From Candidatus Coprosoma intestinipullorum (lineage in GTDB: Bacteria; Bacillota_I; Bacilli_A; RF39; UBA660), in NCBI GenBank assembly GCA_018713045.1, contig DVFV01000020.1:1-36631 (forward strand): DNA of 36,631 nt, read 5' to 3'. Both the position numbers and the translations under genes were made by a program. The notes below the pieces were generated by a model. It had not been told where the DNA came from. It made no database searches and saw only the letters and a list, made by a program, of their open reading frames with translations. Each line of letters starts with the position of its first letter. Position 1 is the first letter of the stretch. Positions 12,276 through 36,583 of this stretch are shown piece after piece.

Positions 12276-13481
12276 TTAATCACTATTTAATAACCAATCA
12301 ATTATATTCATAACTTTTATTCCATTATAATCTTTATTAATTGTTTTATCCATTGTTAATATTATTTTCTCATAATTGTCACTGATACTTTCTAAGCTTC
12401 TAATCTCTCTTTCTTTTACTTCCTCATTTGCTAAAGTTTGTGCAACTTGATAATATTTTATATCATTAGGATTTTCAGCAACAAAATCAACTTCAAAATC
12501 TCCTGATTTTCCAATATTAACACTATATCCTCTTCTAAGTAATTCTAAATAAACAACATTTTCAAGTAAATGACCTTCGTTTATATTTCTAAAACCTAAT
12601 ATAATGTTTCTTATACCAGTATCAGATATATAATATTTTCCTAACGTTTTAAGCAAAGACTTATTTCTTACATCAGTTCGATTTGCCTTATACACAATAA
12701 ATGATTTTTCAAGCATACTCAAATAATTATCAATTGTTTGATGGTTAGATTTTTCTGTAATTTTATTACTATTTAAAAAATCACTAATTTTTTTTGCTGA
12801 TACAGAACTACCAATATTTGTTGCTAAATACTTTATAATATTTTCTAGAAGAGCCACATCTTTTATATTATTTCTATCCACTATATCTTTTTTTACAATT
12901 GTATTATAAATACCATTTAAATAAGATAAAACTAATTCATCATTATCTTTTATTAAAGTAATTGCAGGAAGTCCTCCATATTTTAAATACTCATTAAACT
13001 TATCATCTAAATTAGTATTATCATAATTATTAAATTTTAAAAATTCTTTAAAAGAAAGCGGATACATTTTAATTTCAATATATCTTCCTGATAATAAAGT
13101 AGATAATTCAGATGATAAAAGATAAGCGTTTGAACCCGTAATATAAATATCAATATCAAAATCTACTTTAAAAGAATTAATCGCCTTTTCCCAAGATTTC
13201 ACGTTTTGTATTTCATCTAATAACAAATACACTCTTCCTTTTTTTATTTTTTCTTTTATGTATTTATATAAATCCTTATAATCTTTTATATCATCAAACT
13301 CAGCAGACTCAAAATTAATATATATAATATTATCCTCCTTAATACCATTATTAATTAAATAATCTTTAAACATTAATAAAAGAGTTGATTTACCACTTCT
13401 TCTAACACCCGTTATAACTTTAATAAATTCAGTGTCCTTAGCATCAATCATTTTTTTTAAATAATTTTCTCTTATTATCAT
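12276..13481 (-). CDS. AAA ATPase with C-terminal DUF4143 domain
   Basis: Walker A GVRRSGKSTLL lies near residue 30, Walker B LLLDEIQN near residue 95 and the sensor ITGSNAYLL near residue 120. The C-terminal DUF4143 region contains FEVDFVAE, a PD-(D/E)xK-like core. These proteins are very common in gut Firmicutes and Bacteroidetes, usually in many copies; their role is unclear. The upstream region has a good promoter and two identical palindromes. The transcript start predicted from the promoter leaves only a short leader, so ATG 13481 fits better than the GTG at 13493. A truncated relative lies at 34.5 kb. Confidence 0.85.
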   Translation of the reverse strand: MIIRENYLKKMIDAKDTEFIKVITGVRRSGKSTLLLMFKDYLINNGIKEDNIIYINFESAEFDDIKDYKDLYKYIKEKIKKGRVYLLLDEIQNVKSWEKAINSFKVDFDIDIYITGSNAYLLSSELSTLLSGRYIEIKMYPLSFKEFLKFNNYDNTNLDDKFNEYLKYGGLPAITLIKDNDELVLSYLNGIYNTIVKKDIVDRNNIKDVALLENIIKYLATNIGSSVSAKKISDFLNSNKITEKSNHQTIDNYLSMLEKSFIVYKANRTDVRNKSLLKTLGKYYISDTGIRNIILGFRNINEGHLLENVVYLELLRRGYSVNIGKSGDFEVDFVAENPNDIKYYQVAQTLANEEVKEREIRSLESISDNYEKIILTMDKTINKDYNGIKVMNIIDWLLNSD

Positions 13482-13497
13482 TTGCATCACCACTTAA

Positions 13498-25182: not shown

Positions 25183-25270
25183 AAGTAAAAAATTATTTCT
25201 AAAATTATCCGGGTTAAACTTAACTATAAAATAGCATCATAAGTGAATAACCCCAAAAAAAATTATATCC

Positions 25271-26124
25271 CTAATCTATCCTTTCAATCTTATAATTTTG
25301 CGTTCCAACTAAATCTTCTGCATAATCAAGCGTATGAAGACCATTTCTTAATTCAATTATATTGACAAGCTTTTCACCGTCATCCGCACTATATACAAGA
25401 TCTATACAAGCCTTATCTAAAGCCACAAGATCTGTTGAAGCAAGAATTCCAATATCATGCATATCCGGCTCGGCTGAATTACCATCACAATCACAGTCAA
25501 CTGAAAGCCTATTCATCACATTTATATAAACGATATTCTTTCCGTTATCTAAATAATCAGAAACCGCCTTACCAGCTTCAGCCATTGCCTTTAAAAATGA
25601 ATCCTGACTTCCACCATCTTTACCACCTGAATGAATTAAATTCTTCCCTTCACTAGAAACAATACCAATTGAAATATTTTTGATTGCTCCCACATATCCA
25701 GCCATCGCATGACCTTTAAAATGTGAAATAACTAAAAATGAATCATAATTCTTAAAATGCGTTCCAACTAAATCTTTTGTAAGTCTCTTTCCATCCTTAA
25801 CCGGAATTTCCATAGAACCATCCGCATCCATAATATCCACATCGGCAATATCAGTAAAACCATGGTCCCTAGCTACTTGCATATGCATCTTAGTCTCACT
25901 TCTAGAGCCGCCATATGCCGTATTGCATTCTACTATTGTTCATTAACTTGATTTACAACGTCTTTAAGAAGCTGTGGATTTAAATAATTACTAGCTGGTG
26001 GTTCACCGGTAGAAACCTTAACCGCTACCTTCCCTTTAGGACTCCATCCTAAAGCATTATAAATCTTTACTAAACTATCACTATCGATATTTTTGGTCAT
26101 ATAAACAGTTGCCATATCTTTCAT
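25271..26124 (-). pseudogene. DUF362-family gene broken by a one-base frameshift
   Basis: Two ORFs make up one gene. The first (25933-26124) starts MKDMATVYMTKN with AAGGAAGGG upstream and runs through KVAVKVSTGEPP to LKDVVNQVNE, then hits TAG. Shifting one base restores TIVECNTAYGGSRSETKM and continues without a break through SHFKGHAMAGYVGAIKN and the cysteine-containing VDCDCDGN region to the end. The family's usual order is intact across the join, so a single G is missing near 25938-25942. DUF362 proteins are putative iron-sulfur or oxidoreductase-linked proteins of unknown role. Real decay or an assembly error are both possible. Confidence 0.85.
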
Positions 26125-26322
26125 ATTATCCCTTCCTTTTTTATCTTATCATATATATTTTTTTAAAACTTCATCTAATATAAAATTAACAAGTAATATT
26201 ATTAAAATAATTAATATCAATATAATTATTTTCTAACCTTGTCTTATTATCACCACCTATTATAAAAATACCATATAAGCCATACTCTAAGTCAAGTATT
26301 TTTATTAATTTTAAAAATAAAC

Positions 26323-26365
26323 TACATCATACTTTCTAATTTGGCACGATTTTACTTCCTAATTT
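26323..26365. repeat. Flanking direct repeat, copy 1
   Basis: Matches 34716-34757 at 39 of 42 positions in the same orientation. It contains two ACTTYCTAATTT units 23 bp apart separated by GGCAC. On the minus strand it could encode LGSKIVPN followed by a stop, as the second copy does within a real-looking gene. Confidence 0.8.
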
Positions 26366-26447
26366 AGATAAATATTACTTTTTACTCTTTATTTTTGTAA
26401 AACACATTTTAAATATGAAAAAATACATATATTATTTATCCATACAT

Positions 26448-26488
26448 AAAAAGTAAAAGTCAACTTTATTTAAACTTTCACTTTTTCT
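26448..26488 (-). terminator. Terminator after the first GlyRS gene
   Basis: On the minus strand AAAGTGAAAGT pairs with ACTTTTACTTT (one G-U) and is followed by TTTTT. It begins right after the stop codon. Confidence 0.65.
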
Positions 26489-27859
26489 TTAAAATCTTAT
26501 TTTCGGTAAAATAAAATTTTCGATCTCTCCTACTTTTACTTTAACCTGTTCCATTGTTTCAATGTTTCTAATTGTAACTGTATCATTTTCTAGTGTTTCA
26601 TCATCTACGGTTATACAATATGGAGTGCCCATCATATCTTCTCTTCTATATCTCTTACCGATTGACCCACTCTCATCATAGTCACATGCAAATTCTTTCC
26701 TAAGCCTTCTATATAATTCTTTAGCTTTTTCACTATGATATTTTTTTACTAAAGGAAGTACTGCCATCTTATAAGGTGCAATAAAAGGATGAAACATCAT
26801 ATATTCCCTAATCTCACCATTATCCATTTGTTGCACATGATATCCATTAAATAATAAAGCTAAAAATAATCTATCTGCTCCAACTGTTGATTCGATTATA
26901 TAAGGAACAAATTTTTCGTTTGTCTCTGACTCTATAAACTCCATTTTCTCTCCACTGTATTCTTCATGCCTCTTTAAGTCAAAATCAGTCCGATTATGAG
27001 TACCGTTTATCTCTCCAAAACCAAAAGGAAATTTATAATCAATATCGCATGCCTCTTTCGCATAATGTGCAAGCTTCTCATGTGGATGAAATCTCATCAT
27101 CTTCTCAGGTATTCCTAAATCCATAAAATACTTTTTTGCATAATCCTTAAAATACTCATATATCTCATGATCAGTTCCCTGCTTACAAAAAGTTTGATAT
27201 TCCATCTGTTCAAACTCTATCGTTCTAAAAGTAAAATTACCAGGCGTAATTTCATTTCTAAAGGCCTTACCAACCTGTCCAATACTAAATGGTAAATTAC
27301 TTCTAGTTGTTCTTTTTACATTCAAATAATTAACATATTCTCCTTGTGCATTTTCAGGTCTTAAATAAATTGTACTCTGTTTTTCTGAAGTAACACCCCT
27401 ACTAGTTTGAAACATCAAATTAAATTCTCTAAGCGACGTAAAATCACATTTACCACATTTTGGACATGGAACTTTATTTTTTTTTATATATTCCATCATT
27501 TCCTCATCATTCATCGCATCCGCATCTACATCACTACTAAATTCTTCAATTAAATTATCTGCTCTATGACGAGTTTTACAGTTCTTACAGTCTATAAGCG
27601 GATCAGTAAAAGATGCAACATGACCTGAAGCTTCCCACACTCTCGGATGCATAAGTATTGCTGAATCTAGCTCATACGCATTATCCCTCTCTTGAATAAA
27701 TCTTTTCTTCCAAGAAGCTTTTATATTATCCTTCATTAAACTTCCAAGAGGCCCATAATCCCAAGTATTAGCTAAACCCCCATATATTTCACTTCCTTGA
27801 TAAATAAAACCATATTGTTTACAAATATTTACCATATCTTTCATACTAATTTCATCCAT
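26489..27859 (-). CDS. glyS: Glycyl-tRNA synthetase, alpha-2 type (copy 1)
   Basis: Class II synthetase that charges tRNA-Gly. It has the conserved N terminus YGFIYQGSEIYGGLANTWDYGPLG, the cysteine pairs CKNC and CPKCGKC of the insertion, motif 2 FRNEITPGNFTFRTIEFEQME and motif 3 STVGADRLFLALL, then the anticodon-binding domain (about residues 360-456). 456 aa is normal. It has its own promoter (TTGAAT, 18 nt, TATACT at 27902-27931) and a terminator, so it can be expressed independently of the cluster upstream. A second, complete copy lies at 30774-32159. Which is the housekeeping enzyme cannot be settled here, though its separate promoter favours this one. Confidence 0.96.
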   Translation of the reverse strand: MDEISMKDMVNICKQYGFIYQGSEIYGGLANTWDYGPLGSLMKDNIKASWKKRFIQERDNAYELDSAILMHPRVWEASGHVASFTDPLIDCKNCKTRHRADNLIEEFSSDVDADAMNDEEMMEYIKKNKVPCPKCGKCDFTSLREFNLMFQTSRGVTSEKQSTIYLRPENAQGEYVNYLNVKRTTRSNLPFSIGQVGKAFRNEITPGNFTFRTIEFEQMEYQTFCKQGTDHEIYEYFKDYAKKYFMDLGIPEKMMRFHPHEKLAHYAKEACDIDYKFPFGFGEINGTHNRTDFDLKRHEEYSGEKMEFIESETNEKFVPYIIESTVGADRLFLALLFNGYHVQQMDNGEIREYMMFHPFIAPYKMAVLPLVKKYHSEKAKELYRRLRKEFACDYDESGSIGKRYRREDMMGTPYCITVDDETLENDTVTIRNIETMEQVKVKVGEIENFILPKIRF

Positions 27860-27901
27860 ACTATTCCTCCTATTATAGCATTATAAATTTAATACATTAT
27901 A

Positions 27902-27931
27902 AGTATATCATATATAATAATAAGTATTCAA
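27902..27931 (-). promoter_or_regulatory. Promoter of GlyRS copy 1
   Basis: TTGAAT and TATACT with an 18-nt spacer on the minus strand, about 43 nt before the start codon. No T-box leader is visible in the 119-bp gap. Confidence 0.5.
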
Positions 27932-27978
27932 TTGATAAAAGAAAATATATAATTAGAAATATATCATAAGAATTAACT

Positions 27979-28821
27979 TCATTTTACTTTTGCTAAAACA
28001 AATGTCATAAAAGAATATTTTTTTCTTATATCTTTATTAAAATCTAATTCTGCTAAAGTCATACTGTTGATGTCTTTTTTATGAAAATTAATATCTGGGA
28101 ATTTTTCTGCTAAACCTTTATCATATTTATATAGTTTCTCTTTTAATAAATTTATTATTTCAAAATTTTCTTTTGTTTCTTCAGATAAAAAATTTTTTTC
28201 GGACAAAAACATTTGAAAACCATCCACACAAATAATTTCCAAATTTTTTTCTTTCATAATTTTTTCTAAATCATCTGTTGAAAACTTCTTATGCTCTTCA
28301 CCATATTTTTTACTATTTTTTTCGCTCCAAGATACATAATTCTTAAAAAAAATAGATTCTTGGTTAGGAATTGCAATAAAAATATATTTGTTACTTAAAG
28401 AAATACATTTTTCTACAAACTTAACCATCTTTTCATAATTATAATGCTCAATAACACCCAAACTTAAGACCAAATCATATTTACCAATAAAATCAAACAA
28501 ATCTTTTTTATGATAAATAATAGGTATTCTAAGATCTTTAGCAATTTGTTTACCATATTTTACAGCCTTACTAGATTTATCAACAGCAGTAATACTTATA
28601 TTATTATTATAATTATAAATAGATATAGAAAAAGCACAAGAACCAGCTCCAATCTCACATGCTGACCTAATGTCATTAATATACTTACTAATTAATGTAA
28701 CTGCTGAATTGTTTCCAGCCCATCTAGCAGGTTGCCATTCATAATACTTATTATGAGGATTACATTTAATACTATTATATATCTTTATTTGCTCTAACCA
28801 ATATTCCTTTTCTTCATCCAT
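27979..28821 (-). CDS. SAM-dependent methyltransferase
   Basis: A class I methyltransferase with SAM-binding motif I CEIGAGSCAFSISIY near residue 55, the acidic residue ending strand 2 in ITAVDKSSKAV, and DLVLSLGVIEHYNYEKMVKF (motif post-II/III) near residue 125. 280 aa. Seen in such clusters it would methylate a small molecule or peptide, but the substrate is unknown. It is the last gene of the six-gene run, 12 bp after the amidohydrolase, with AGGAG 9 nt before the ATG. No terminator follows, so transcription could run into GlyRS copy 1. Confidence 0.82.
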   Translation of the reverse strand: MDEEKEYWLEQIKIYNSIKCNPHNKYYEWQPARWAGNNSAVTLISKYINDIRSACEIGAGSCAFSISIYNYNNNISITAVDKSSKAVKYGKQIAKDLRIPIIYHKKDLFDFIGKYDLVLSLGVIEHYNYEKMVKFVEKCISLSNKYIFIAIPNQESIFFKNYVSWSEKNSKKYGEEHKKFSTDDLEKIMKEKNLEIICVDGFQMFLSEKNFLSEETKENFEIINLLKEKLYKYDKGLAEKFPDINFHKKDINSMTLAELDFNKDIRKKYSFMTFVLAKVK

Positions 28822-28833
28822 AATATAAATCTC

Positions 28834-29811
28834 CTATAATCTAAAAAATTTTTTTGAATTATCATGTAGTATTTTCTTTTTAGAGGTTTCATCACTTACA
28901 TATTCACAAAATCTATTCAATTGGTTATAGTCGCCTGTATATGTAATTCTATCAGTATAGTTCCAATTATAATCTATATCAAAAGACAAAGTATCTTCAT
29001 CATATAGGTTTAATAAATCTCTTAAATAATTATCTGTATTTTTCATTAATCTTTCAGGTTCATTATTTAATAACAAATCTGGAGAAATTCCCGCTAAAAA
29101 TTGCCCTTTGTTTTGTTTCAAAATATAACTACATTCTTTTGATAACCTACAGCCATGAATCAAATATCCTCTAATATCATATTTACTAAGTAATTTAATC
29201 CAGTTTAATGGATTATTTGCAAAATACAATTTATCGATTCCTGAAGAAATATTATCACAATAATCTGTATGAACAGCTAACGGAACATTACTCTTTGAAA
29301 TAACTTTCAATAAATTAGGATTAATAATATCTAAGTCATACAATCCTGTCGAAATTCCATGAACTTTTAACCCTTTTGGATTATATGATAATAATTCTTC
29401 CAAATAATCTACAGTATCAAAATATAAATTTATAGCTGGGATATATTTAAAATCAACAACAGTTTCAACATTTTTTAAATAATTCATCAACTTTTCGTTA
29501 ACTTCTTTATATGGATTACTTTGTACATCTAATATCTTTATTCTCCCATTATCGACAATTTCACTATAATATTCAAACTTATTATTAACATATTTCCATA
29601 AACAAAATACTTTTGTTACACTTCTCTCTTTATCAATAATCATTGGTGAAGTACAAGGTGCAACCAAAGAAATTCCAATATTATTTTTCTTAGCTATTTT
29701 CTCATATTCATTTATGGTAGGAAGATAAGGCATCATAATATTTTTACCAACTACTTCTTCCTCGGTTTCATAACCAATATGTGAATGACCATCAATTACT
29801 TTATAATTCAT
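28834..29811 (-). CDS. Amidohydrolase family 2 (PF04909-like) metal-dependent hydrolase
   Basis: 325 aa with a TIM-barrel amidohydrolase pattern: DGHSHIG at the N terminus (metal-binding HxH), LKVHGIS near residue 150, PLAVHTDYCD near residue 185, LIHGCR near residue 220, FDIDYNW near residue 275 and the family C terminus ILHDNSKKFFRL. Members hydrolyse or decarboxylate small molecules using Zn or similar metals. The gene overlaps the end of the MccF-like gene by 11 bases, with GGGAGG 7 nt before its ATG. It is probably a tailoring or detoxifying enzyme of the cluster; the reaction is not predictable. Confidence 0.8.
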   Translation of the reverse strand: MNYKVIDGHSHIGYETEEEVVGKNIMMPYLPTINEYEKIAKKNNIGISLVAPCTSPMIIDKERSVTKVFCLWKYVNNKFEYYSEIVDNGRIKILDVQSNPYKEVNEKLMNYLKNVETVVDFKYIPAINLYFDTVDYLEELLSYNPKGLKVHGISTGLYDLDIINPNLLKVISKSNVPLAVHTDYCDNISSGIDKLYFANNPLNWIKLLSKYDIRGYLIHGCRLSKECSYILKQNKGQFLAGISPDLLLNNEPERLMKNTDNYLRDLLNLYDEDTLSFDIDYNWNYTDRITYTGDYNQLNRFCEYVSDETSKKKILHDNSKKFFRL

Positions 29812-30769
29812 TTTCAGACCTCCCTATTATTATTTTAGGTACATTAAACGCTTCTATTCTTGCATATCCCCCAATAGGAAAAGTAAAAATTGGTGTTGTA
29901 TGTCCAAAATTGGCATCCACAAGAATAGGTATCTTATTTAACATCTTTTTGTTTTTTACTAAAAATTTCCATTTTTTTACATTCATATTAGAAACATTCT
30001 GACATATTCCAATAACTATTCCTTTAATAGACGAACCAATCTCAGATTGTAACAGACTTTCTAAATTTCTATCAAATTCTAAAAGAAAATTACCATCTTC
30101 GCCTCCAGAATCCTCTATAAAAAGAATAATTTTTTCTAAATGTGGCATATATTCAGTTCCCTGCAATAAATTTAGCGTGTTTAAATTACCCCCTAATATA
30201 ACACCTTCTGCAACGCCTTTATTTATTATTTTTAAACCATAATTTTTTATCTTGTTAACTTCACTCTGATTCATATACCATGGATCGTCACGATAATATT
30301 GTGATGACTCTATAATTATGCTTTCACCATTTATAGCTTTTAAAAAATAATTCACAGTATAATCAATACCATAAATCATACCAAAACTAGAAAAATGTGG
30401 TCCATAATATGTTATTATTCCTGTTTTTGCATAAATAGCCACTAAAATTGCAGTAACATCAGAAAAACCGCAAATTATCTTAGGATTATTTTTTATTAAA
30501 CTATAATCTATATATGGTAATAATTGATTAGAATTATAACCTCCTATAGCGCTTAAAATAACATCAACATTAGAACTAAAAGCCTCATTTAAATCCTCAA
30601 CTCTATCATCAACACTGCCGCAACAATAATAAAGTTGATTTTTATAAACGTTTTTTGAAAAAATCACTTCATATCCGATAGAATTTAATTTATTAATAGC
30701 GTTTTTTTTTGTATCATTACTAATTACTGACAATGACTTTGAAGGAGCAATAACCATAATTTTTTTCAT
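29801..30769 (-). CDS. S66-family peptidase, MccF-like (LD-carboxypeptidase superfamily)
   Basis: About 322 aa. GGYNSNQLLPYIDYSLI near residue 85 and CGFSDVTAIL (nucleophilic serine) near residue 110 match MccF, as does GGNLNTLNLL; FIEDSGGE and GHTTP (near residue 285) fit the glutamate and histidine positions. MccF cleaves the amide between amino acid and nucleotide in processed microcin C, so producers survive; other S66 members are wall LD-carboxypeptidases. The NSN motif and the synthetase-like neighbours favour the MccF role. I shortened the start by 22 codons to MKKIMVIAP, 4 bp after the GlyRS-2 stop. No signal peptide, so it acts in the cytoplasm. Confidence 0.85.
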   Translation of the reverse strand: MKKIMVIAPSKSLSVISNDTKKNAINKLNSIGYEVIFSKNVYKNQLYYCCGSVDDRVEDLNEAFSSNVDVILSAIGGYNSNQLLPYIDYSLIKNNPKIICGFSDVTAILVAIYAKTGIITYYGPHFSSFGMIYGIDYTVNYFLKAINGESIIIESSQYYRDDPWYMNQSEVNKIKNYGLKIINKGVAEGVILGGNLNTLNLLQGTEYMPHLEKIILFIEDSGGEDGNFLLEFDRNLESLLQSEIGSSIKGIVIGICQNVSNMNVKKWKFLVKNKKMLNKIPILVDANFGHTTPIFTFPIGGYARIEAFNVPKIIIGRSENEL

Positions 30770-30773
30770 ATCT

Positions 30774-32159
30774 TTATCTTCTCTTAACCAATTTCTTACA
30801 CAAAACATTCTCAATATTATCTGCAGATATAACAAATTGATCTCTAGTATCCCTATCCCTTATAGTTACAGTATTATTATTAATTGTCTCTTCATCAACA
30901 CACACAGAATAAGGAGTACCAATAGCATCACTCTTTCTATAACGTTTACCAATATTTCCCTTATCGTCATAATATACCATCAATTTTGTTCTCAAATCTT
31001 TATATATTTTAAAAGCTTTATCTCCATGTTTCTTTCTTTCTAAAGGTAATATACTAACTTTAATAGGAGCTAATTCAGAATTTATTTTAAGAATAGTTCT
31101 TTCTGCTCCATTTACATCAACCTGTTTAGTTAATGATTCACATAATATAGCTAAAGTAATTCTATCAAGGCCATATGTCGATTCAATGATATATGGAATA
31201 TATTTTTCTCTATTTTTTTGATCAAAATAATTCATTTTCTTACCGCTATATTCTTGATGGCGTGAAAGATCAAAATCAGTTCTATTATGTGTTCCATTTA
31301 TTTCCCCCCAACCAAAAGGAAATAAATATTCAATATCACATGCTTCTTTTGCGTAATGAGCCAATTTTTCATGATTTTTATATCTTAATTTATTTTCAGG
31401 CAAACCTAATTTTTCAAGAAATGTCATCCCATACTTCTTGAAAAATTCATATATATCATGATCAGTTCCCGGCTTACAAAAAGTCTGATACTCCATTTGT
31501 TCAAACTCGATTGTTCTAAAAGTAAAATTACCAGGCGTAATCTCATTTCTAAATGCCTTTCCAATCTGACCAATACTAAATGGTATTTGGGCATGCATAC
31601 TACGAAGTATATTCAAATAATTAACATATTCTCCCTGGGCATTTTCAGGTCTCAAGTAAATAACATTCTGTTTTTGGCTAGTAACCCCTCTATTTGTTTG
31701 AAACATTAAATTAAACTCTCTAAGTGGCGTAAAATCACTTTCTCCGCATTTTGGACACGGAACTTTATTAATTTTTATATATTCCATCATTTCATCATCA
31801 GTCATTAAGTCGACATCTAATTCACTATCATAACTTTCTATTAATTTATCAACTCTATATCTAACCTTACATTTTCTACAATCAACTAATGGATCGCTAA
31901 ATGATTTAACATGCCCAGAAGCTTCCCATACTTTAGGATTCATCAAAATATCGGAATCTAATTCATAAGCATTCTCTCTATTTTGAATAAAATAATATCT
32001 CCATTCATCTTTAATATTATTTTTTAATCTAGCACCTAATGGACCATAATCCCATGTATTAGCTAAACCCCCATATATTTCACTTCCTTGATAAATAAAA
32101 CCATATTGTGAACAATATTGAACGATATCCTCCATCTTGATTTCTTTATTTTCTTCCAT
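30774..32159 (-). CDS. Glycyl-tRNA synthetase, second copy
   Basis: 461 aa with all the features of copy 1: QYGFIYQGSEIYGGLANTW, cysteine pairs CRKC and CPKCGES, motif 2 FRNEITPGNFTFRTIEF, motif 3 STYGLDRITLAIL, and the anticodon domain. It therefore looks catalytically intact. The start was moved to MEENKEIK, with GGGGAGG 8 nt upstream, leaving a 14-base overlap with the AlaRS-like gene. The two copies share tracts of identical DNA (54 bp at 32056-32109) within otherwise diverged sequence. Its place between a synthetase-like pair and an MccF-like gene suggests a resistant version of the target of the cluster's product. Confidence 0.93.
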   Translation of the reverse strand: MEENKEIKMEDIVQYCSQYGFIYQGSEIYGGLANTWDYGPLGARLKNNIKDEWRYYFIQNRENAYELDSDILMNPKVWEASGHVKSFSDPLVDCRKCKVRYRVDKLIESYDSELDVDLMTDDEMMEYIKINKVPCPKCGESDFTPLREFNLMFQTNRGVTSQKQNVIYLRPENAQGEYVNYLNILRSMHAQIPFSIGQIGKAFRNEITPGNFTFRTIEFEQMEYQTFCKPGTDHDIYEFFKKYGMTFLEKLGLPENKLRYKNHEKLAHYAKEACDIEYLFPFGWGEINGTHNRTDFDLSRHQEYSGKKMNYFDQKNREKYIPYIIESTYGLDRITLAILCESLTKQVDVNGAERTILKINSELAPIKVSILPLERKKHGDKAFKIYKDLRTKLMVYYDDKGNIGKRYRKSDAIGTPYSVCVDEETINNNTVTIRDRDTRDQFVISADNIENVLCKKLVKRR

Positions 32160-33129
32160 ATTTATAACCTCCCCTAGATAATACTTTATTAACATTGCTA
32201 TTAATTATATTCTCCTCATAATCACCATATTCGAGCAAAATATAATCTTTTATCATTTCAAAAATACGATCATTTGAAATTCCCATAATGTCACCCCATT
32301 GAAAAAGATGACGCAAATATTTTCGATAAAGATAATTAGGACTTCTATCTGACAAACTAGAAACATTTTCATAAGCTAAATTAGAAACCACTGATAAACA
32401 ATCGGCAAACTTAAAATCTTCCGGCGACACCACATTATAAATATCCACAACGCTAGAAGCTTCTATACTAGTATCTAGTTCTAATTTTCTCATTAATATT
32501 GAATTTAAGCCTATAGCACATTCAGCACCATATTTTTTCTCATTAGATTCTATAACAATTATATTACCAATATCTTTATATTTATTATCTTTAACATTTC
32601 TAATAGCTATATTAAAATTTCTACCATAAATTCCCATATCTTGCAAACCATATTTATGCTTATAATAGTTTTGTGGTTTTGAATCAAATTCTATCAAAAC
32701 TTTATCATTAATATTTCTCAACGATTTAATCAAATCTAAATCATCACTAGATATTCTTATCATTATATTTTCATAATCAAATCCAATAATTTTATTCAAA
32801 AACTCAATTGTATCATACACTAACTTTTCTAAATTTGCATATGGTACAAGAATACCTGAAGCATCAAAATAACTTGACCATTCATTCTTTTCAGGAATAT
32901 CAATTCGCTTCAATCCTCTTGTTCTTATAGCACGTTGAATTAAAAAATCACCGGGATTATCAATATCATCGTTTAATAATTTAGGCTTTAAAACACTTAT
33001 TGTTGATCCAACAAATACAACACTTTTATCTATACCAGAAGAAATTTTTACTTCTTTATTTTGCTGATAACCTACTTCTGAAAAAAAATTAATATAATCT
33101 TTTTTTAAATTTTCTATTTCCTTTTTCAT
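32146..33129 (-). CDS. Stand-alone alanyl-tRNA synthetase-like catalytic fragment
   Basis: 327 aa. The N terminus (DYINFFSEVGYQQ) parallels the AlaRS start, ISVLKPKLL and RAIRTRGLKRI follow the pattern of motif 1, and EWSSYFDASGILVPY occupies the place of the motif 2 FFEMLGNFSFGDYF. The C-terminal RSPNYLYRKYLRHLFQWGD resembles the AlaRS helical tRNA-binding region. The editing and C-Ala domains are absent (AlaRS is about 870 aa). Several catalytic residues differ from AlaRS, so amino acid specificity and tRNA use are unknown. It follows the AsnRS-like gene by 17 bp. I infer an amino acid-activating enzyme. Confidence 0.65.
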   Translation of the reverse strand: MKKEIENLKKDYINFFSEVGYQQNKEVKISSGIDKSVVFVGSTISVLKPKLLNDDIDNPGDFLIQRAIRTRGLKRIDIPEKNEWSSYFDASGILVPYANLEKLVYDTIEFLNKIIGFDYENIMIRISSDDLDLIKSLRNINDKVLIEFDSKPQNYYKHKYGLQDMGIYGRNFNIAIRNVKDNKYKDIGNIIVIESNEKKYGAECAIGLNSILMRKLELDTSIEASSVVDIYNVVSPEDFKFADCLSVVSNLAYENVSSLSDRSPNYLYRKYLRHLFQWGDIMGISNDRIFEMIKDYILLEYGDYEENIINSNVNKVLSRGGYKYGRK

Positions 33130-33146
33130 ACAATTTCACCACCCAT

Positions 33147-34172
33147 CTAAGGTACAATATTCCTCCCATTAAATCTCAAACATATCTGCATATTCCTAAT
33201 ATCCTTACACTTTAATACCCACATTAAATATCTTTCAATTCCCATACCAAATCCCGAAGTTTGAAGTGGAAATTTTTTCTTCATCTCAATATACCATTCA
33301 TATTCTTTAGAATTAACATTATGCTCATTTAACGATTTATATAACTCTAAATCTGTTTTATTTCGTTCTCCACAACCAACTGTTTCACCAATTCCCATCA
33401 GCAAATCAGCATTTTTTGCACTTCTTTTATTTTTTTCATCAACTTTTTGATAAAATGGAACCGCCATTTTATCATAATTTGTTACCCAAATAAGCCCATC
33501 ATAAATTTGCATTAATGCTTTTTCACCATCACTAGTTATATTTCTAAAGCCATCATCATAAATGATAAATCTATCTATTTTATCAGGAAATTTTTCCTTT
33601 AGTTTTTTTTCTGCGTCATCAAATGTAATTCTAGGGAATTTTCCTTTATAATTAGCTACCTTTTTTATATGAGTAATATCACCAAGTTCATGTTGCAATA
33701 CTTCACCAAATTCTTCGATTATTTTCCTTGATAAATGTTTTATATATTCTTCAACTAAATCCATTACGTCATTTAAATTCCCAGGTATTTCAGCTTCACT
33801 ATGATAAAACTGGCATAAATGTCTTTCATCAGCTTCTTCTCCTCTAAAAGTTGGCATTATATAATAAACTCCATTTTCTGTTAATCTACAACCATATTCT
33901 AAAAAAAATTGCATTGAATCAGCGAGATAAGTATCTACACCACATATATTTACCTTTACAGGTTTTGAATCACTACCTTTTCCCATAGGACTTGATATTG
34001 ACCCAGTAGTTACAGGTAAATGCATTGTTAATATATTTTTAGAATTATAAAAATAAACTGTTTCCTTAGTAATTAAATTCTCCAATTTCACAAGTAATTT
34101 GTACCAATCACTTTCTAAAACATTCAAATAATAATTACTTTCGTTTTTCCACAAATTAGGTTCTTTTAACAT
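33147..34172 (-). CDS. AsnRS/AS-AR-like class II synthetase core without anticodon domain
   Basis: 341 aa. Class II motif 2 reads FRGEEADERHLCQFYHSEAE near residue 110, and motif 3 GFGMGIERYLMWVL near residue 305, followed by CLRFNGRNIVP, which parallels the AsnRS/AspRS end. DTYLADSMQFFLEYGCRL precedes motif 2. The N-terminal OB-fold that reads the anticodon is missing. Archaeal proteins of this plan (AS-AR) make asparagine, and others activate amino acids in secondary metabolism. It is the first gene of the run, with a promoter about 60 nt upstream and AAGGAGG 5 nt before the ATG. Confidence 0.78.
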   Translation of the reverse strand: MLKEPNLWKNESNYYLNVLESDWYKLLVKLENLITKETVYFYNSKNILTMHLPVTTGSISSPMGKGSDSKPVKVNICGVDTYLADSMQFFLEYGCRLTENGVYYIMPTFRGEEADERHLCQFYHSEAEIPGNLNDVMDLVEEYIKHLSRKIIEEFGEVLQHELGDITHIKKVANYKGKFPRITFDDAEKKLKEKFPDKIDRFIIYDDGFRNITSDGEKALMQIYDGLIWVTNYDKMAVPFYQKVDEKNKRSAKNADLLMGIGETVGCGERNKTDLELYKSLNEHNVNSKEYEWYIEMKKKFPLQTSGFGMGIERYLMWVLKCKDIRNMQICLRFNGRNIVP

Positions 34173-34456
34173 AAAATCCTCCTTGTCTTTTATATATTTT
34201 AAAATATTAATTAATAATATAAATAAAAATTACTTCATATTACAAATAAACTAAGCAAAAAACAATTTACTTGGAAATTCAAACATCTTAATATTTAATA
34301 TTTAATATAAAAGAAAATTTATTTAAACATGCTCTTTAAAATAAAGAATAAATAAACAGAATTATTCTTCATAATATTAATTGATATGTTGTCATGAATA
34401 TTACCACTATTTTTAAACAAATTCAAGTGTTTTTCAAAATAAAAAACTGAAATTAA
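34173..34456. other. Leader and promoter region of the synthetase-like cluster
   Basis: AT-rich, 284 bp. It holds the cluster promoter but no ORF, no tRNA and no T-box that I can see. Confidence 0.5.
34237..34265 (-). promoter_or_regulatory. Promoter of the synthetase-like cluster
   Basis: On the minus strand TTGTTT and TAATAT are separated by 17 nt, about 65 nt upstream of the first start codon. Confidence 0.55.
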
Positions 34457-34723
34457 TCAGCTTCTTAAACAAGTTATAGGTACAACATACACTCCATCAT
34501 CTCTTCTGTAAGCATATTTTGTAGCAGTAAGCACCATTAAAAACGAAGGTTTATTCATTTCATCAGTATCAACAACACTAACAAATTTAAGTAAATTTTT
34601 AGCAGCTGCCTCTATAGAATCTTTAGAGCCGAGTTTAATTTCTATCGCACCCCATCTACCATCGCGTAAATGAACTATTGCATCGCATTCTAAATCATTT
34701 TTATCACGATAAAAATACATCAT
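34457..34723 (-). pseudogene. Truncated DUF4143 ATPase, C-terminal remnant
   Basis: 88 aa: YFYRDKNDLECDAIVHL, GAIEIKLG, FLMVLTATKYAYRRDDGVYVVPI. These are the last motifs of the DUF4143 nuclease-like domain of AAA ATPases (full length about 400 aa). The ATPase domain is missing. In frame, the sequence upstream meets a stop inside the flanking repeat, so the gene was cut at or near that repeat. It is unlike the intact DUF4143 gene at 12.3 kb in its C-terminal sequence, so it derives from a different member. Confidence 0.8.
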
Positions 34724-34757
34724 ACTTCCTAATTTGGCACAATTTTACTTTCTAATT
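34716..34757. repeat. Flanking direct repeat, copy 2
   Basis: 39 of 42 positions match 26323-26364. It lies at the truncation point of the DUF4143 remnant and covers the last codons (SKIVPN) of the small upstream gene. Together the copies enclose the 8.4-kb segment with both GlyRS genes and the synthetase-like cluster. Confidence 0.8.
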
Positions 34758-34956
34758 CTGTATAAAAAAGTTCAATGTCAGTATACCAAGTATTCTTAGA
34801 AGTATCAATTGCTAATTTTAATATCTCAAGATCTTTTTTATTTAAATTTGATATATCAAATATAACTTCTTTATAATCTTCAAATTTTATTAAAGGAACT
34901 TTATACGTAATAACATCATTTGTATGCGCATTTTCTACATCTATCCATGCCATCAT
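34729..34956 (-). CDS. Small protein of unknown function
   Basis: About 75 aa, acidic and hydrophobic mixed, beginning MMAWIDVENAHTND and ending in LESKIVPN. I do not recognise the family. The track start was trimmed by 16 codons because GAAGG lies 8 nt before this ATG. The last residues are encoded by the flanking repeat, so the natural C terminus may have been replaced during rearrangement. It is 19 bp after the ABC-F gene and could be co-transcribed with it. Confidence 0.45.
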   Translation of the reverse strand: MMAWIDVENAHTNDVITYKVPLIKFEDYKEVIFDISNLNKKDLEILKLAIDTSKNTWYTDIELFYTELESKIVPN

Positions 34957-34975
34957 AATTAAAACCTTCTTTCCT

Positions 34976-36583
34976 TTATTTCTTATGCTCCTTATAATAA
35001 TCATAATTACCTAAATAAGAAATCAAATGTTTATCTTCTATATATATAACCCTTTCTGCTATTTTATTTATAAAATATCTGTCGTGTGAAACAAATAATA
35101 AAGTACCTTTATAATTTCCAAGGGCATCCTCGAGAATCTCTCTCGTATCTATATCGATGTGATTAGTCGGTTCATCGAGAATCAAAAAATTCGCGTTTTT
35201 CTGAATTAGTTCAAAGAGTTTAAGTCTGACCTTTTCTCCACCGGACAAAGTTCCAACTCTTTTAAATACATTTTCTCCATAAAATAAAAACTTTGAAAGG
35301 GCCGCCCGAAGATGCGTCTCATCACCGTTAAATACCTTCCGCGAAATATCTAAAACCGTCTTGTTATCATCATCGAAATGTATCTCCTGCGGAATATATC
35401 CAATAGAAACTCGGCTTCCAATTTTAATCCTATCATTTTCATTTCTCAAAATCGCCTTGATAAAAGTCGATTTTCCGCTACCGTTTTTCCCCATTAAACA
35501 AACCTTTTCACCATACTTTAAAATCATAGAAGCTTTATTTAATAACTCTTTATCACCAGCCATCAAATCTAAATCGTCCACCTTTAAAACTTCATTCCCT
35601 GACCTATCATCGATTTCAAAATCCAAAGGAAGCTTCTTTTTTACTTCCGGCTTATCTATCATTTCCATTCTCTCTATTCTTCTTTCGATATTTGCTGCTC
35701 TTCTAAAAAATACCGGATTATCGCCTTCTGTTCCCCACTGCCTAAGTCTCTTGATTGCGGCCCTCATCGCCTCTATCTGTTTTTGTTGATTCTTATAATT
35801 TTCAAACTCAGCCAAAGTCCTTCTTTCACTTTCTTTTAAATAATAAGAATAATTTCCATTATAAACATCTGCCTTACCTTTATCGACAAACACAATTTTA
35901 TTTACAACCTTATCTAAAAAATACCTGTCATGTGAACTTATAATAATCGTTCCTTTATAATTTCCTAAAAACTTCTCAAACCACTCTAAAGTATCAATAT
36001 CCAAATGATTAGTCGGTTCATCCAAAAGTAAAATATCGGGATTTCTAATAATAAGTGAAGCCAAATTTACAATCGTTTTTTCACCACCTGATAAGGCATT
36101 AAAACTTCTCTCTAACATATCATCCGTTATTTTAAAGCCACCGCAGACCTTACTTATCTTTTCATTTATCTCATATCCTCCTAAAGTCTGAAACTCATCT
36201 TGTAGCCTTCCATAACCCTTAAGCGCCTTATCTAACTCTTTAGAAGAAAGAGTCGCAAAACTGTTCTCATATTCCCGCATCCTCTTTTCAATATCAAAGA
36301 GTTTTGAAAAATTTTTAAGTAACATATCTCTTACTTTTAAATCGTCAGAAACCCGAGGAGGAATCTGTGAAAGCAGCCCTAAAGTTGCACCTTTACGAAT
36401 AGAAAGTGTTCCAAAGTCAAGTTTCTCTTCACCGGCAATTATTTTAAAAATAGTTGTCTTTCCGCATCCATTAGGTCCAATCAAACCAATCCTATCGCCA
36501 GTATTTGCCTCAAAGTCAAAGCCATCTAAAACGTTTTTAAACCCAAAACTTCGTTTGGCCTTATTTAAACTTATCTCTATCAC
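34976..36583 (-). CDS. ABC-F family ATPase
   Basis: 535 aa, two ATPase domains and no membrane segments. Site 1: GPNGCGKTT, LSGGEKTIVNLASL and LLLDEPTNHLD. Site 2: GKNGSGKST, LSGGEKVRLKLFEL and LILDEPTNHID. A linker rich in Arg, Lys and Glu (about residues 235-320) joins them, as in ribosome-binding ABC-F proteins. Members act on the ribosome in translation control or protect it from antibiotics; this one lacks a clear resistance-type long linker, so I leave the role open. The start is GTG with AGAGGTG 7 nt upstream. It lies outside the repeat-flanked segment, so a link with the cluster is not implied. Confidence 0.92.
   Translation of the reverse strand: MIEISLNKAKRSFGFKNVLDGFDFEANTGDRIGLIGPNGCGKTTIFKIIAGEEKLDFGTLSIRKGATLGLLSQIPPRVSDDLKVRDMLLKNFSKLFDIEKRMREYENSFATLSSKELDKALKGYGRLQDEFQTLGGYEINEKISKVCGGFKITDDMLERSFNALSGGEKTIVNLASLIIRNPDILLLDEPTNHLDIDTLEWFEKFLGNYKGTIIISSHDRYFLDKVVNKIVFVDKGKADVYNGNYSYYLKESERRTLAEFENYKNQQKQIEAMRAAIKRLRQWGTEGDNPVFFRRAANIERRIERMEMIDKPEVKKKLPLDFEIDDRSGNEVLKVDDLDLMAGDKELLNKASMILKYGEKVCLMGKNGSGKSTFIKAILRNENDRIKIGSRVSIGYIPQEIHFDDDNKTVLDISRKVFNGDETHLRAALSKFLFYGENVFKRVGTLSGGEKVRLKLFELIQKNANFLILDEPTNHIDIDTREILEDALGNYKGTLLFVSHDRYFINKIAERVIYIEDKHLISYLGNYDYYKEHKK

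Follow-up and report, generated by a model that had tools for sequence, protein, structure and literature searches.

Why would a gut member of the Bacilli with a reduced 1.5 Mb genome carry the gene for an S66-family peptidase directly after that for a duplicate glycyl-tRNA synthetase (GlyRS)? Among antibiotics that imitate an aminoacyl-adenylate, agrocin 84 is the classical one, and its maker has a spare copy of the target enzyme. Within the S66 family, MccF hydrolyses the carboxamide bond of aminoacyl-nucleotides (PMC9239234). In the 36 631-nucleotide stretch of Candidatus Coprosoma intestinipullorum DNA analysed here (the window), a first-pass annotation had proposed that the peptidase is an MccF-like immunity enzyme. 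We find its gene in an operon headed by a homologue of the agrocin 84 synthetase AgnA, and interpret the locus as an agrocin-84-like cluster, probably directed against GlyRS, in which the S66 protein would serve as hydrolytic immunity enzyme. We assign this reading a probability of roughly 0.7.

The S66 protein retains the catalytic residues of MccF

The S66 gene (29801..30769, minus strand; start ATG at 30769, stop at 29801) encodes a protein of 322 aa that contains both Pfam Peptidase_S66 domains (N-terminal, E = 1.4e-34; C-terminal, E = 1.4e-23), in agreement with its first assignment to this family. The closest solved structures are Lmo1638 (PDB 4h1h) and BA_5613 (PDB 4e5s), both matched at E ~1e-87. 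MccF structures are matched at 1e-46 to 1e-38 (Bacillus anthracis, 1e-46; E. coli, 3e-38) and the murein LdcA structure at 1e-18. Its naming as an MccF-like S66 peptidase draws on these domain and PDB matches together with the residues and the tree described below.

Aligned with E. coli MccF from plasmid MccC7-H22, the protein keeps the Ser-Glu-His triad, with MccF Ser118, Glu243 and His311 corresponding to Ser103, Glu219 and His290. Trp164 aligns with MccF Trp186, and the loop bearing this tryptophan is kept; the same loop is missing from LdcA-type sequences, an isolated Trp at the loop position in E. coli LdcA being probably an alignment accident. The nucleophile Ser103 lies inside GFSDVTAIL (from residue 101) and the NSN loop occupies residues 79–81. 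Both motifs had been read as favouring MccF over LdcA. The NSN loop does discriminate between the two, whereas the serine motif does not, because E. coli LdcA carries GHSDFTAI at the same position; the Trp loop separates MccF from LdcA better than the NSN loop. The N-terminus (MKKIMVIAPSKS...) leads directly into the enzyme domain and no signal peptide is visible when the sequence is judged by eye, as had been observed before. The window protein thus shares with MccF the fold family, the catalytic residues, the Trp186 equivalent, the NSN loop and the lack of a visible signal peptide.

To place the protein within the family we built a maximum-likelihood tree of S66 sequences and evaluated alternative placements by the AU test. 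The window protein pairs with its counterpart from a second genus of the same family (support 99/97), and both fall in a group containing BA_5613 and Lmo1638 together with Enterococcus durans and Bradyrhizobium proteins (100/97). The deep split of the tree is weakly supported (70/94). Constraining the protein to LdcA is rejected (p-AU 1.5e-4), and identity as an LdcA wall enzyme was set aside on this ground. The AU test likewise rejects a position with E. coli MccF in its clade (p-AU 5e-6). The protein is thus MccF-like, and neither MccF itself nor LdcA. Its group also includes stand-alone genes; the Listeria homologue, unlike the window gene, adjoins no AgnA-like or synthetase gene.

Operon organization

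A six-gene operon, whose genes overlap or lie no more than 17 nt apart, runs from 34172 to 27979 on the minus strand. It opens with an AgnA-like enzyme (33147..34172; 341 aa), an AsnRS-type class II catalytic core without an anticodon-binding domain, followed by a free-standing AlaRS-like catalytic core that we call AlaL (32146..33129; 327 aa). AlaL gives a weak Pfam match; the best PDB matches of its AlphaFold model (mean pLDDT 84.7) are all AlaRS catalytic domains, at TM ~0.73–0.76. Third is GlyRS2, a spare full-length GlyRS (30774..32159; NCBIfam glycine--tRNA ligase, 599 bits). The S66 gene starts 4 nt past the GlyRS2 stop, so that its reported position directly after a duplicate synthetase is correct, and its last bases are shared with the beginning of the following gene, which encodes an amidohydrolase-like protein (28834..29811; 325 aa; weak match to Pfam Amidohydro_2) with 29–32% identity to proteins of three other AgnA-type clusters (L180, L182 and L183). 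The last gene encodes a SAM-dependent methyltransferase (27979..28821; 280 aa). After a further 119 nt comes GlyRS1, the second island-borne GlyRS (26489..27859), also on the minus strand.

Several other readings of the locus were considered. Pfam found no ThiF domain among the island proteins; the MccB (ThiF) of microcin C clusters thus has no counterpart in the window, and a microcin C cluster was ruled out on this ground. An anti-phage defence island was likewise set aside, as no PADLOC model matched the six operon proteins scanned, and so was control by a T-box or other leader RNA, as an Rfam scan of 25200–35100 returned no match. No exporter, no gene for an uptake-mimicking moiety and no sugar-phosphate gene was recognised in the island.

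Comparison with the agrocin 84 cluster

The first gene of the operon links it to a known antibiotic. Its product is 39% identical over the full length to AgnA, the 'Agrocin84-synthetase' of pAgK84 (E = 5e-82), and agnA has been described as a truncated AsnRS homologue without the anticodon domain (PMC4392301). It is 45–53% identical to proteins on Pantoea, Peribacillus, Exiguobacterium, Xenorhabdus and Streptomyces plasmids. The class II motifs FRGE and GFGMGIER are kept, as are the class II residues of motifs 2 and 3 in all 16 AgnA homologues compared, with RGE of motif 2 invariant.

Downstream of agnA on pAgK84 come a methyltransferase gene, agnB2 (LeuRS) and, further on, agnC5, annotated as MccF-like. 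AgnB2 is a second, agrocin-resistant LeuRS that protects the agrocin 84 producer (PMC5059758). Both clusters therefore bring together a full-length AgnA homologue, a spare synthetase, a SAM methyltransferase and an MccF-like S66 protein. They differ in that the spare synthetase is a LeuRS on pAgK84 and a GlyRS, in two copies, in the window; in the AlaRS-like core that the island adds; and in most of the agnC tailoring genes and the NUDIX and transporter genes of pAgK84, which have no counterpart here. The window methyltransferase belongs to a different subfamily from agn_MT, the usual companion of AgnA, and the island sits in a member of the Bacilli with a tiny genome, unlike the agrocin 84 cluster. 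The aminoacyl-nucleotide antibiotic suspected from the duplicate synthetase gains strong support from the AgnA homologue and from the repeated presence of S66 genes at AgnA-type loci described below.

As a separate observation, the Pantoea agglomerans plasmid protein (L207:9464-11059), 53% identical to the AgnA-like protein of the window, has an additional N-terminal part joined to its AgnA-like domain and is annotated as a whole only as a GNAT acetyltransferase; no S66 gene lies nearby.

Spare GlyRS copies

Both GlyRS genes of the window are extra, a point missed by the first-pass annotation. The housekeeping gene lies on another contig (C121) of the same genome and groups with those of congeners in a tree in which the island copies stand apart, which excludes GlyRS1 as the housekeeping gene. 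One row of this tree (G248) was assigned to the congeners in error through its label; the positions given here are independent of it. Three GlyRS genes are present in the window genome (G000) and three in the second genus (G724), compared with at most one match in each of the other family genomes searched. Contamination of the metagenome-assembled genome (MAG) as the source of the copies was ruled out, as contig C10 is native to the genus and a second genome has the same triple.

GlyRS1 and GlyRS2 are 63% identical at the protein level. On a long branch, the window's GlyRS2 pairs with its counterpart in the second genus (SH-aLRT 98), and it deviates at 11 of 145 near-invariant columns. All four island copies have lost a lysine that directly precedes motif 2 and is invariant in 50 other GlyRS, another residue taking its place. 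These substitutions suggest a changed active-site surround and possible resistance, and GlyRS2 is probably a self-immunity copy of the target. The presence of two extra copies and not a single one counts against our reading.

The island as a probable insertion

The genomes are MAGs. Contig C10 is native to the genus, its phosphomannomutase being 99% identical to that of congener G023 and 96% to that of congener G028. In both congeners the MarR gene follows within about 80–180 bp of the ABC-F gene. In the window these genes flank a segment at about 25183..34976 absent from the two congeners, and their adjacency there implies an insertion here or a loss there. Copies of a 46-nt direct repeat (91%) lie just downstream of GlyRS1 (26319..26364) and upstream of the AgnA-like gene (34712..34757), bracketing the genes from GlyRS1 to the AgnA-like gene; both copies are inside the insert, which rules them out as its ends. 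The edge of the insert also holds a C-terminal remnant of a DUF4143 ATPase (34457-34723), and a comparable AAA-ATPase gene, apparently intact, is found elsewhere in the window (12276-13493).

Recurrence of the gene combination

The operon of the second genus (L068) shows 66% identity to the window's for the AgnA-like enzyme, 53% for AlaL, 67% for GlyRS2, 56% for S66 and 50% for the methyltransferase. It too has GlyRS1 after the methyltransferase, giving two GlyRS genes and an S66 gene in the cluster, and an HD hydrolase replaces the amidohydrolase. Another congener, G036, carries an AgnA-like gene (69%) with an AlaL-like protein, an S66 gene and a second LysRS that is 41% identical to the genome's other copy. 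Six further family genomes have AgnA-like genes (62–67%), four of these loci with S66.

On plasmids, the AgnA-type gene is accompanied in Peribacillus by AlaRS, AlaL, a methyltransferase and S66, in Exiguobacterium by AlaRS and AlaL, in Xenorhabdus by LeuRS and S66, and in Streptomyces by S66 and a ProRS-like protein. On pS05J of Bradyrhizobium elkanii an S66 gene (42% to the window's) is directly followed by an AgnA-like gene (37%); unlike the window, the 25 kb covered contain no spare synthetase. Altogether, an S66 gene is found at 12 of 17 AgnA-type loci examined, in tandem at two of them (L184 and L185), and the full synthetase alongside varies (Leu, Ala, Gly, Lys, perhaps Met). We claim no formal probability for this recurrence, as the loci share descent. 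In the tree their S66 genes occupy two or more distinct branches, from which it follows that S66 was recruited more than once.

These clusters hold further genes of interest. At L068, L180, L181, L182 and L185 the AgnA-like gene has a RelA/SpoT-type gene immediately upstream; this gene encodes about 480 aa where complete, in L181 with HD, synthetase and TGS domains, and may represent a dedicated short RelA or mark an insertion site. The LysRS-carrying cluster encodes a free-standing class I synthetase-like core (L159:4623-5720) with PHVGT and KLSKR motifs recognised by eye, possibly a lysine-activating counterpart. One protein recurs in four AgnA-type clusters (L181:9036-10133, L184:9317-10420, L185:9072-10184 and L180:6264-7169); it gives no convincing Pfam match and has a common motif around SPI(N/C)P(L/F)GLN. 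An AgnA-type cluster without S66 encodes an amidohydrolase (L182:4069-5187; Pfam Amidohydro_1) that by eye looks like isoaspartyl dipeptidase and could be another hydrolase for immunity.

AlaL clusters with other candidate immunity hydrolases

AlaL also occurs apart from AgnA. A conserved set of AlaL, a radical SAM-histidine phosphatase fusion (~710 aa) and an S51 peptidase, with no AgnA-like gene, is found at L046, L048/L018, L049, L050/L019 and L051, in gut Bacilli, Alphaproteobacteria and Shapirobacteria. Immunity to microcin C is a known function of both S51 (MccG) and HIT (MccH) hydrolases (PMC9239234, PMC7157772). What these clusters have in common with the window is an AlaRS-like core and a hydrolase of a microcin C immunity family; unlike the window they lack an AgnA-like gene, and have S51 where the window has S66. 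ProRS genes beside AlaL in L051 and L053 were ruled out as spare copies, each genome having only one full ProRS. A search for AlaL in plasmids and viral contigs gave no match.

The closest AlaL outside the family is from Dysgonomonas, and adjoins an extra GlyRS of another type (GlyQS) and a HIT protein. This cluster (L045:8779-14966) comprises an AAA_28 kinase, an HD protein, AlaL, a PurD-like ATP-grasp protein, a HAD-like protein, a free-standing class II core and the HIT protein; the adjoining GlyQS gene is convergent, and the genome also has a dimeric GlyRS.

Proposed function and alternatives

From these homologies we infer a product, a target, an immunity function and an order of chemical steps for the island. 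The island, probably horizontally acquired, would direct the synthesis of a nucleotide antibiotic that is a stable mimic of an aminoacyl-adenylate, glycyl or related. The AgnA-like enzyme with the AlaRS-like core would activate an amino-acid-like acid, and the two cores would form an acyl-amide or phosphoramidate linkage to the nucleotide, while the methyltransferase and the amidohydrolase-like protein may decorate or trim the product. The target would probably be GlyRS, with the spare copies binding the compound poorly and so protecting the producer, as AgnB2 does for LeuRS. The S66 peptidase would, as in MccF, cleave the acyl-nucleotide carboxamide bond of compound released inside the cell. 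Besides the second extra GlyRS, several observations weigh against this reading: neither a dedicated exporter nor a gene for an uptake-mimicking moiety was recognised in the island, the S66 protein falls outside the E. coli MccF clade in a group with stand-alone members, the methyltransferase is not of the agn_MT family, and the genomes are MAGs.

The main rival, which we regard as unlikely, makes the S66 protein a biosynthetic or maturation enzyme that trims or transfers an acyl group, and leaves immunity to the spare GlyRS alone. The location of agnC5 on pAgK84, among the agnC biosynthesis genes and away from agnB2, would suit such a role; the tandem S66 genes of L184 and L185 could have different jobs, and in the literature searched we found no tested role for AgnC5. 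The characterised relative MccF, however, is a degradative immunity enzyme (PMC9239234), whose catalytic triad and Trp loop the window protein keeps, and the S51 and HIT immunity families hold comparable positions in those AlaL clusters that have no S66.

A resistance-only cassette appears less probable still: the product would have been lost, with the S66 protein and the GlyRS copies guarding against a compound made by neighbours. An island that is rare and recently acquired, compact, without an exporter and housed in a reduced genome accords with this idea, yet no role in resistance is apparent for the AgnA-like and AlaRS-like cores, both of which are intact in both genera, the AgnA-like core with its class II motifs retained. 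That the S66 protein is an ordinary wall-turnover LD-carboxypeptidase, in the operon by chance, is very improbable: its sole NCBIfam match is muramoyltetrapeptide carboxypeptidase, far under the cut-off (110.6 of 378 bits), and the literature searched does not fix a substrate for the BA_5613/Lmo1638 group, but LdcA placement is rejected, the Trp loop missing from LdcA-type enzymes is present, and S66 genes stand beside AgnA-like genes at most loci examined, against a total of three S66 genes in the 1.5 Mb host.

Implications

Returning to the agrocin-84-like reading, our literature search, which was not exhaustive, found no description of an agrocin 84 relative in these gut Bacilli, and no agrocin-84-type natural product that targets GlyRS or LysRS. 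More tentatively, at slightly less than even odds in our estimation, AgnA-type clusters may make up a widespread group of modular nucleotide antibiotics, whose target changes when the core that activates the acyl part is exchanged along with the corresponding spare synthetase (Leu, Ala, Gly, Lys, perhaps Met). Within this group, the window cluster would be the member aimed at GlyRS, with S66, S51 and HIT hydrolases as interchangeable immunity parts. If the agrocin-84-like reading is right, the spare synthetase beside each AgnA-like gene would name the target of the compound before its isolation, and the S66 gene would offer a direct assay for the compound of an AgnA-type cluster.
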